From Ecdyonurus torrentis (taxonomy: Eukaryota; Arthropoda; Insecta; Ephemeroptera; Heptageniidae): a stretch of DNA of 64,000 nt. The DNA lies in assembly GCA_949318235.1 (NCBI GenBank), contig OX439135.1, forward strand, positions 22,436,501-22,500,500, read 5' to 3'. The notes beneath the pieces are model-generated. The model was not told the DNA's origin, did not search any database, and saw only the letters and a program-made list of their open reading frames with translations. Made by a program: the position numbers and the translations under genes. Positions 21,101-24,100 of the stretch are shown piece after piece (the stretch's first letter is position 1; each line of letters starts with the position of its first letter).

Positions 21101-24100
21101 TAGAGCACGTTGAATTGAAAATTAATAAAACGCAAAAATTCTCTAATTTAAATAGTAAATTGGGACTAGGGATAAAATATTCTAGCTTGAGCTAGTTAAA
21201 AAGTAGACGTTAAAGGGATGGAGGTATAGTGTCAAAATAAAATACGATGTGCCTAGCATCTCACGTTCTCACACTACGTCAAAGACACAACATTATAAAA
21301 CAGCATCAGACTTACTCTTTGCCTTAGACCGGTTTCGTCCTTTACCTAGGACTCATCAGTAAGGCTCAGCAGAGAGCTCTGTACAGCTAGAGATGGCTCA
21401 CACCACATCTGCTAACTGACTGAGCTGAGGAAGCAAGTGGCAGTCGCGTTTTTATACGCGATTTTAACCAATCAGCGCGTGCAGCTGCGGGGGCATCGCG
21501 TATAAAAACGCGACTGCCACTTACTTCCTCAGCTCAGTCAGTTAGCAGATGTGGTGTGAGCCATCTCTAGCTGTACAGAGCTCTCTGCCGAGCCTTACTG
21601 ATGAGCCCTAGGTAAAGGACGAAACCGGTCAAAGGCAAAGAGTAAGTCTGATGCTGTTTTATAATGTTGTGTCTTTGACGTAGTGTGAGAACGTGAGATG
21701 CTAGGCACATCGTATTTTATTTTGACACTATACCTCCATCCCTTTAACGTCTACTTTTTAACTAGCTCAAGCTAGAATATTTTATCCCTAGTCCCAATTT
21801 ACTATTTAAATTAGAGAATTTTCGCGTTTTATTAATTTTCAATTCAACGTGCTCTAATCTCTACCAACTATTTTCTAAATGTTTTTTTAAACTTATTAAT
21901 ACTAACCGCGATGGTTTTTTCCTAATACGCGCATTAAATAAGGATAAGTCTACAAAAGCCTATATCTATGGAATTCAAAAGATCATTTTTTTTAATGCTA
22001 TTTAAACGTCAATATATAGTCAATAGGTCTACTTTTTTTATCCTTAACTGGTAACTATATATATCGATCTTGTTGCAAAAAAAAAGGTATTTCTCGTATT
22101 TTGTCAGGGGAAGCAAAAGGCCTATCTTATTTTTTGTCAATGGAAGCAAAAGGTATATCTCGTTCCCGAACGTTATGGAGATGGCGCTTGAGATAAACCT
22201 TTTGCTTCCACTGACAAAAAACTAGATAGGCCTTTTGCTTCCCCTGACAAAATATGAGATATACCTTTATTTCGCAACAAGATTGATAAAAAATGTTTTC
22301 TACTTTTTTTGTTAACCCATAATAAAGAATTACTCGTAAAGCAGTCATTTAATAGCAATTTTCTTAGCACAGCAATAAAGTTTGAACCATGATAACTTTA
22401 TGAACGTTATCACAAGGGGATAAGAAAATCACCAAAAAGGAGACGTTGCAAAAGTAGGTTTAGTGATAAAATAAACAAACTGACAGCTCAACAATACTAA
22501 CAAAGTGCTAGCAGATGACTTTGTGTTCCTGTCTACATTTAACATGCTTTCTTATGAGGCAATGAAGCAGCTATAACTCAAAGTAAAATTATTTCTCAAA
22601 GTTGAAATTTTTACTGTAGCTTACTGAGCCTCAAAGCTTTTGTTTTCCTGGGTTTAAAGACAATTGGATAAAATAACTAATTTGAAACCAAATTTATTGA
22701 AATCCAGGGAAACAAAAGCTTTGAGGCTTAGCAAGCTACAGTAAAAATTTCAGCTCTGAGAAATAATTCTAAGTCAAGTTATAACTGCCCCATAAGAAAG
22801 CATGTTAAATGTAGACAGGAACACAAAGTCGTCTGCTAGCACTTTGTTAGTATTGTTGAGCTGTCAGTTTGTTTATTTTCTCACTTAACACACTTTTGCA
22901 AAGTCTTCTATTAACAACTTCTTATTTAAAAATTTCAAATTCTGCGACTCTTACATAAGTGAGGGGAAAAAGTATATTGTAGTTAGCTTAATGCTCTCTA
23001 GAATATAAAGTTAAAAAATGAATATCAAAAAATCACAATCGCACTTTACAACTTTGCATGGCATTAAAAATTTCCCTTATTCACACTAATAGTAAAGTAG
23101 TTAATGTTATTTCATCCAAGAGGCACTTATTGTTGTAAAGATTGAGACAAGTCATAGAGATTATACATAGTCCTACCTTGAGAGTAACGTATGAGGCAAG
23201 TTGATGTTATCAATGATTGTCTTGTTCTTGCTCCACTGAGACTCCACTGGGTTGGCTGCAGCAAGGATGGAAGTACGAGCATTCAACTGACAAATGATAC
23301 CAGCCTTTGTGATACTTAGGGTCTGTTGCTCCATTACCTGAACATACCAAAATATAAATCAAGTTAATATGAGAATTTTAAAGGAATAGACCAGAAGAAA
23401 ACATAAGTATTTATATCACAAAACACTTGATGGGACTTGCATAAATAACTTTAGTTTGTCTCAAAACAGAAAATACAAAAGATGATTAAATTTTTATTAA
23501 TAATATGAGCAAAGGTGCGAGTACGATTGATTACATTTTATGCTCGAAAAATGCAATCTCTTTTATTACTAATTTTTATGTTGATGCAAGAGCCAACTGT
23601 AGCCCCGTAGCAGTGATCAGAAAATGTTGATTTTTGTAACCCACACAACATTTTTTTCACTAATTTTTGCATGTTTCTGATTTCATAAACATGAATAGTC
23701 TTGCAAATTGCATGCTTTACAGTATTTTCACTCTCTCTCTCTCATGGGGCTACATTAACATTCTGGTAAAAATTGTCATAAGTTTTGAAGATCCCATTTC
23801 GTGTTTACTCATTAAAAAGCACATCGATGGTGTTGCGGCTAAACCACGCTTCTACTTTTAGTGTATTTCCTTACTTTCACGCATCTACGTTTATCGTGGT
23901 AGCCTTAAAAACGCGTATCTACATTTATCGCGACAACAGATAAAAACATTTCTACATAGGAAAACAGGTGTAGAAATGTTTTTACCAGTTGTCGCGATAA
24001 ATGTAGATACGCGTTTTTAAGGCTATCACGATAAACGTAGATGCGTGAAAGTAAGGAAATACGCTAAAAGTAGAAGTGTGGTTTAGCCGCAACAGCATTG

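Follow-up and report, generated by a model that had tools for sequence, protein, structure and literature searches.

Hammerhead ribozymes occur commonly in animal genomes. For the non-coding retrozymes of animals, processing by a hammerhead ribozyme, a circular RNA intermediate and helpers from Penelope-like elements (PLEs) have been proposed (Cervera and de la Pena 2020, PMC7229834, available part). In the available text of a further article, no conserved motif of metazoan retrozymes points to a helper, and the role of the hammerhead in PLEs is still called a mystery (PMC7761336). As far as the accessible portion of PMC11167929 goes, a purified Penelope-like enzyme cuts both strands of the target and extends them, reverse transcription proceeds from two adjacent internal sites, the interval between them being the genomic tail, and the hammerhead is active only with the protein. 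Rotifer Penelope elements have head-to-head ends and a 31-bp tail, with self-priming as the favoured explanation (PMC3846280, in part). Here we analyse 64,000 nucleotides of the mayfly Ecdyonurus torrentis (contig OX439135.1 of assembly GCA_949318235.1; this whole stretch is called the window). It carries a hammerhead motif at 21321-21365, minus strand, within an intron of the replication gene MCM4. The motif belongs to a mobile-element family, A1, and not to MCM4; nothing found links it to MCM4 function. Judged from sequence, A1 is quite probably a non-coding, non-autonomous retroelement with a ribozyme-bearing RNA that would be circularised and copied by rolling reverse transcription, the enzyme being Penelope-like and encoded by a second family, B.

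A1 resembles the metazoan retrozymes that lack long terminal repeats (non-LTR retrozymes), as set out in the available part of PMC7229834, in being non-coding and in having low-GC tandem units, a type I hammerhead and duplications longer than 4 bp. Their tandem units measure ~170-400 nt, whereas the units described here measure 884 nt (A1) and 730 nt (a subfamily, A2). The word "inverted" is absent from the main text of that article; here, in contrast, two head-to-head arms, a one-sided tail and a minimal ribozyme of the PLE type are found. Metazoan retrozymes have canonical hammerheads with contacts between loops 1 and 2; the form analysed here is the minimal one of 45 nt. With the hammerhead PLEs (PMC11167929 and PMC3846280, both in part) A1 shares inverted head-to-head ends, an optional 30-40 bp tail at one end, target-site duplications, a TATA-like box and a minimal, dimer-type hammerhead. 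Unlike PLEs, A1 codes for nothing, and no hammerhead core was seen in the stretches read of family B, which does have an open reading frame (ORF). Plant LTR retrozymes (PMC4918200, in part) are likewise non-autonomous and carry a hammerhead, and they have the circular RNA that we propose for A1. They differ from A1 in their type III hammerheads, LTRs with primer-binding sites and 4-bp duplications (per PMC7229834). In the open-licence literature, at the level of titles and abstract openings, no description was found of a hammerhead element that combines a Penelope tail with palindromic head-to-head arrays, and nothing was found on non-autonomous Penelope elements.

Read on the minus strand, positions 21321-21365 are GCCUUA-CUGAUGA-GUCC-U-AGGUAA-A-GGAC-GAA-ACCGGU-C^UAAGGC, with all conserved positions of a type I core. 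Stem I has 6 bp, stem II 4-5 bp, and stem III is the loopless palindrome ACCGGU. Position N17 is C, and cleavage is predicted between 21327 and 21326. The core, the stems, the GUC triplet and the cleavage site named in the original prediction agree with the letters of this strand. That prediction had called for a covariance search and had counted the lack of a hit above threshold against itself. A permissive search of 3 kb did return Rfam Hammerhead_1 (RF00163) at 30.0 bits (expect value, E, 1.1e-4), but this lies below the gathering score of 34 bits, and the hammerhead gave no match in the whole-window search at gathering thresholds. Probably the loopless stem III is a poor fit to the model. 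In the same permissive search the inverted repeats matched microRNA families with E down to 5e-25, likewise below cut-off, and since palindromes reached far lower values, the E-value of the hammerhead taken alone says little. Formally the Rfam miss speaks against the motif, yet it is outweighed by the genome-wide evidence. A scan that required core and pairing, run on both strands, hit the window once and 60 simulated first-order Markov windows not at all. Across the 117 contigs (503 Mb) of the host genome there are 980 exact copies of the 45-mer, 489 and 491 by strand, against 0 for a reversed-pattern control. When two 45-mers were co-folded, a double hammerhead was predicted (-31.9 kcal/mol), whereas a different structure is the best predicted fold of one copy alone, which bears out the earlier view of the short stem III as a dimer-type feature. 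We consider it confirmed, at the level of sequence, that 21321-21365 is a genuine hammerhead motif, of a family that is putatively self-cleaving. As a type I hammerhead with a short stem III it is expected to act as a dimer.

The motif lies within a complete insertion in the MCM4 intron, whose features are as follows:

20872-20989, minus strand: MCM4 exon downstream of the element, matching MCM4 chains of the PDB (E 1.8e-11)
21046-21061: left target-site duplication, CATTAAATAAGGATAA, whose TAA is common to the element end; exact 16-bp repeat at 21932-21947
21059-21462, minus strand: left arm, an antisense copy of unit positions 442 to 39, without tail
21062-21931: entire inserted A1-family element, 870 bp, two arms head to head, bounded by the duplication; the layout recurs in 30 other loci
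21321-21365, minus strand: intact hammerhead in the left arm, predicted cleavage site 21327/21326
21450-21457, minus strand: TATA-box-like GTATAAAA of the left arm
21457-21928, plus strand: right arm, a sense copy of unit positions 1 to 472, with tail
21466-21480, plus strand: CCAAT-box-like block, single copy at the arm junction, conserved in the copy at 32.5 kb; its function is presumed from the motif only
21500-21507, plus strand: TATA-box-like GTATAAAA of the right arm, conserved in the alignment with the 32.5-kb copy
21592-21636, plus strand: damaged second hammerhead in the right arm, position 1.1 changed and a mismatch in stem II
21901-21931, plus strand: asymmetric tail, with CTAACCGCGATGGTTTTTTCC at 21902-21922, spanning the interval between the two inferred reverse-transcription starts
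21932-21947: right target-site duplication, 16 bp, exact repeat of CATTAAATAAGGATAA

The arms form an inverted repeat (21059-21462 / 21495-21898) of 404 nt with 98% complementarity, in keeping with the arms of 400 bp reported earlier. The preceding MCM4 exon, recognised by eye, ends at 23177. The PDB match of the downstream exon and the position of the hammerhead, on the MCM4 sense strand ~330 nt upstream of the acceptor, uphold its placement in an intron of this gene. The original prediction had cautioned that the arms may sequester the core, and folding agrees: in the predicted structure of the insertion transcript 44 of the 45 ribozyme bases are paired with the other arm, the probability of stem I is 0, and this pairing is already present once the ribozyme is complete. 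In a lone arm or unit, stem I pairs have predicted probabilities of 0.81-0.98 (innermost ~0.28) and stem II pairs at least 0.99. The MCM4 copy is thus predicted to be inert, silenced by its own palindrome, and should not cut.

A BLAST search of the genome with the element gave 213 matches; 40 of 1741 candidates were scored and 38 listed loci analysed. The A1 unit measures 884 nt (reference L013:1285-2168). It is non-coding, and since its longest ORF beginning with ATG has 29 aa, A1 is regarded as non-autonomous. Within the unit, the hammerhead occupies 136-180 and the tail block roughly 445-478; a CCAAT-like box and TATAAAA are also present. An insertion consists of a single arm or of two; units run head to tail inside an arm, and paired arms are joined head to head. 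The longest arm reaches 5781 nt, or 6.5 units (L013); of the 62 arms, 22 are longer than a single unit. The same organisation appears in a sample with less selection, namely the 100 exact ribozymes that head the list of 980 (all from contig C1): same-strand neighbours within 3 kb are spaced by 886-904 nt in 12 of 12 cases, and neighbours within 3 kb form 21 head-to-head pairs and no tail-to-tail pair. The window holds one older A1-family member, composed of pieces of 88-90% identity:

37722-38276: older member, head to head, tail on the left
37708-37721 / 38277-38290: its duplication, TTTATTACAAGTTA

The ends of the insertions are asymmetric. A set of 31 two-armed insertions comprises 30 of the 38 loci and the window element; outside it stand two incomplete stretches (L024, L038), a complex one (L029) and five with a single arm (L025, L028, L041, L044, L047). 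In 31/31, one outer end falls at unit position 417-449 and the other at 471-481, and exactly one outer end carries the tail of ~30 nt. Exact duplications of 10-17 bp flank 26 of 39 stretches; four lie in (AT)n, and nine have none, a short match or a distant one. Whereas the outer ends are nearly fixed, the inner arm ends are scattered round the unit. Self-priming by snap-back, the explanation favoured for the rotifer elements in PMC3846280 (in part), was rejected as the origin of the palindromes: it would give a tail at both ends, and one tail in 31/31 speaks for two separate starts. Linear, hammerhead-cut monomers were rejected as the usual template, as ends would pile up at position 175; in fact no inner end out of 62 falls at 174/175 or up to 3 nt away from it, and 56 of the 62 arms run through this cleavage site. 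The sole inner end seen exactly at the site is that of the older window element, whose plus arm begins at hammerhead position 1.1 (38021/38022), as if the template had been a ribozyme-cut linear RNA; this is a single case.

As a separate observation, 8 of 31 insertions have paired inner ends at unit positions no more than 20 nt apart, against a permutation mean of 1.5 (P 0.0001); in some, the number of rounds is also equal, as in L012 with arms of 3354 and 3338 nt. Fifteen of the other 23 have inner ends 273-437 nt apart. Close inner ends may perhaps reflect both enzymes meeting the same break in a circle.

Variants within the arrays bear on the template. Among 25 complete units from 11 loci, units of one insertion differ at a mean of 0.6 positions (35 pairs, maximum 2, in poly-T), and units of different insertions at a mean of 10.1 (265 pairs, range 0-23, some insertions being indistinguishable). 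Arms were then compared with partial units included and the poly-T/tail region masked, leaving 13 segregating sites. The two arms agree in 272 of 278 comparisons at these sites; with arms shuffled among insertions the mean is 204 and the maximum 220 in 2000 shuffles. Where a site is read at least three times per insertion, a derived variant fills every pass in 33 cases, is confined to a single pass in 16 and occurs in some passes in 2. Variants confined to one pass are what later mutation would give. The insertions thus appear, as far as shared variants tell, to have passed through a single-unit stage and then multiplied.

The tail led to family B. With up to 2 mismatches, CTAACCGCGATGGTTTTTTCC has 2984 genome copies (1482 and 1502 by strand; control 0). 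Thirty loci with exact tails on C1 were sorted by eye into 14 A1-like and 16 of family B, and the tail ends both families. Two short B copies lie in the window:

15402-15814: short head-to-head family B copy with the same tail; duplication 15387-15401 / 15815-15829
40066-40405: second short family B copy with the same tail (1 mismatch); duplication 40055-40065 / 40406-40416

Longer B copies encode an ORF, 856 aa as read in L080, where two arms of 2613 bp are 100% identical, with one tail and a 14-bp duplication seen by eye. Among 53 scored of 977 candidate matches to the B ORF, adjacent pairs are head to head in 13 of 13 cases and tandem in none. The A1 and B copies read have the same one-tail, head-to-head anatomy with duplications. 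A block common to A1 and B spans 29 nt (27/29 identical, E 4.5e-8, unit 439-467) and begins at the no-tail end and stops slightly before the tail end; beyond it, the remaining matches between A1 and B are only of chance length. By motifs and insertion anatomy we take family B to encode a putative Penelope-like reverse transcriptase with a GIY-YIG-like end; by eye, its ORF contains the GIY-YIG-like series VIYKL...FYIGLT...R...GHR. The B enzyme is a candidate helper of A1. A GIY-YIG domain was also noticed at L049 (G000:C10:48233988-48234194), where the open frame spans 1496 aa; of these, 647 aa were read, and by eye they bear no resemblance to a reverse transcriptase.

A second ribozyme type marks subfamily A2, represented in the window by a relic:

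32397-32437, minus strand: A2 hammerhead relic, N17 = G, expected to be dead; its flanks align to the A1 unit

A pattern search gave 152 A2 places (76 + 76 by strand). Among 100 listed of these, same-strand spacing is 730 in 6 of 6 cases, and pairs are head to head 18 times versus tail to tail 0 times. In stem I, A2 has GUUACA/UGUAAC where A1 has GCCUUA/UAAGGC, so that by hand 4 of 6 pairs are changed on both sides with pairing kept; this pairing is largely preset by the search pattern, which fixes both strands of stem I save one base of the innermost pair. In stem II (GCCU/AGGC or GCCU/GGGC in A2, GUCC/GGAC in A1) 2 of 4 pairs are changed on both sides, again with pairing kept. Stem III is shortened from ACCGGU to ACGU and is still a palindrome. 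We read these changes as a sign of constraint on the ribozyme. Forty of the 152 sequences, which do not include the window relic, were examined: 31 are complete, and N17 is T in 36, C in 2, A in 2 and G in none. Separately, L086 (G000:C10:35671000-35672000) represents a second Penelope-like family with 69% protein identity to B. Its 3' region contains GATCGCGAGATGGTTTTTTG, which resembles a diverged tail, and this family might serve A2.

We propose the following course of events. In transcripts with more than one A1 unit, the hammerhead, probably acting as a dimer, would release unit-length RNAs with ends C174 and U175, which a host ligase may close into circles. The Penelope-like enzyme of family B would recognise the ~29-nt block around the tail, as its sharing suggests, and nick both target strands. 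From the two kinds of outer end, reverse transcription would start at unit position ~443 on one strand and at ~476 on the other. Each complementary DNA (cDNA) would then run round the circle, for a fraction of a unit up to 6.5 units, and the shared variants suggest that both are copied from one RNA molecule or from identical copies. Joining of the two cDNA ends head to head would leave a palindromic array between target-site duplications, the MCM4 copy being a short product (404 + 472 nt). If the template is circular, starts at two sites on two strands would lead to several rounds and to head-to-head joining, as the anatomy of A1 shows. Two start sites, head-to-head joining, a single-unit stage, a shared tail and a conserved ribozyme are read from the sequence; we infer cleavage, circularisation and recognition by the B protein. 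On these grounds we are inclined to think that reverse transcription here is two-headed, target-primed and of the rolling-circle kind, with one ribozyme-made circle as the template of both cDNAs, the hammerhead on the parasite, a helper lacking one, and the tail as the signal recognised in trans.

The same enzyme might instead copy a linear multimeric transcript of an existing array, without any circle, the hammerhead serving only in processing or surviving as a relic. There are arrays, and the unit bears CCAAT- and TATA-like boxes, the enzyme would start internally anyway, and the 56 of 62 arms that run uninterrupted across the cleavage site are as expected from uncut RNA. However, insertion-specific variants are mostly present in every pass and in both arms. 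Because copying of a multimer passes a new change to one unit only, a single-unit stage is required between generations, and since the shared variants fill all passes, a circle accounts for them, unlike a linear multimer. Moreover, in family B, whose stretches read show no hammerhead, the 53 matches include no tandem pair, and we regard the linear template as unlikely. An origin at the DNA level, whether as a foldback transposon or miniature inverted-repeat transposable element (MITE), by unequal crossing-over with gene conversion, or by misassembly, appears very improbable. Long inverted repeats are typical of foldback transposons, crossing-over can lengthen arrays and conversion homogenise them, and palindromes are hard to assemble; but such origins sit badly with asymmetric ends bearing exactly one tail, with varying inner and nearly fixed outer ends, with duplications of 10-17 bp at two thirds of the stretches (26/39), with arm lengths that are very unequal in many insertions and with a tail that recurs in a family with a putative reverse transcriptase. 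Some assembly errors within arrays are conceivable, but misassembly would not be expected to produce the duplications or the one-tail rule.

A1 might also be mobilised by another retrotransposon, such as the LINE-like element with an ORF at 25796-28906, the tail being common to B by chance or descent only. LINEs (long interspersed nuclear elements) and PLEs are both named as candidates in the available part of PMC7229834, and the domain evidence for B is weak. The common block, however, spans the interval between the two inferred starts while no other similarity exceeds chance length, and the two families share their insertion anatomy in the copies read; we therefore judge a different mobiliser to be rather improbable. 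That the ribozyme acts on MCM4, by cutting the intron or altering splicing as suggested earlier, is hardly credible. Its sense orientation ~330 nt before the acceptor would suit such a role, but cleavage of the pre-mRNA at this copy is unlikely because the antisense arm is transcribed before the ribozyme and is predicted to pair with it along its full length; in addition, target-site duplications flank the insertion and the ribozyme is one of 980 exact copies. A function in MCM4 was accordingly rejected, while the link to Penelope-like mobile elements drawn in the original prediction stands: the hammerhead sits in a mobile element tied to them.

Several results weigh against the proposed mechanism. 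In the accessible portion of PMC11167929 the ribozyme was dispensable for insertion in vitro, and no reads started or ended at the cleavage site. Folded alone, the 45-mer reaches -14.7 kcal/mol in another structure and only -9.8 as the hammerhead; for A2, the dimer is not predicted to fold as a double hammerhead, contrary to a simple dimer model for that subfamily. On C1 below 24.2 Mb, 12 A2 sites were compared with the listed exact tails, and no tail lies within 2 kb of any of them; A2 may carry a changed tail or another signal. Both variants present in only some passes occur in L030, and drawing the A1 loci from the best BLAST matches favours young, long, tailed copies. For family B, the Pfam match to RVT_1 (E 1.4e-5, 25.3 bits) falls below the curated cut-off of 29.6, Pfam finds no GIY-YIG match in the ORF up to E 10, and B is absent among the hits of a genome-wide GIY-YIG (PF01541) search. 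A PDB search of B gave no relative, and a structure model of its C-terminus was unusable, with a mean predicted local distance difference test score (pLDDT) of 40. The common tail shows association, not recognition.

Other parts of the window were noted in passing:

13857-13928, minus strand: transfer RNA gene, the only Rfam gathering hit in the window
25796-29648, minus strand: LINE-like element with a 1036-aa ORF, adjoining MCM4 (by eye)
35831-37489: nested large inverted repeats, arms of 295, 169 and 212 nt, 94-99% complementary
35969-35983: within these repeats, a block resembling the A1 CCAAT-like block
39457-39622: short foldback that has the A1 3' region in part (about 78-89% identity) and may belong to a third related family
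55560-59937, plus strand: exons of a PP1-like protein phosphatase gene (by eye), with repeats in between

Relatives in viral contigs were sought with two patterns and gave no match; one 20-mer match in a Treponema bin is about the chance level estimated for 257 billion bases.

If the proposed mechanism is true, it answers the open question of how such hammerhead elements move. A1 and B amount to a natural experiment, in which two families have the same tail and anatomy, one with a hammerhead and tandem arrays and the other apparently without either. The arrays record the template, in the form of a single-unit stage, as well as the two start sites and the number of rounds. Where PMC7761336, in its available text, knew no motif that points to a helper, the pair supplies a helper candidate. 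It also yields testable predictions on circle formation, on recognition in trans and on the origin of the head-to-head ends of Penelope elements.

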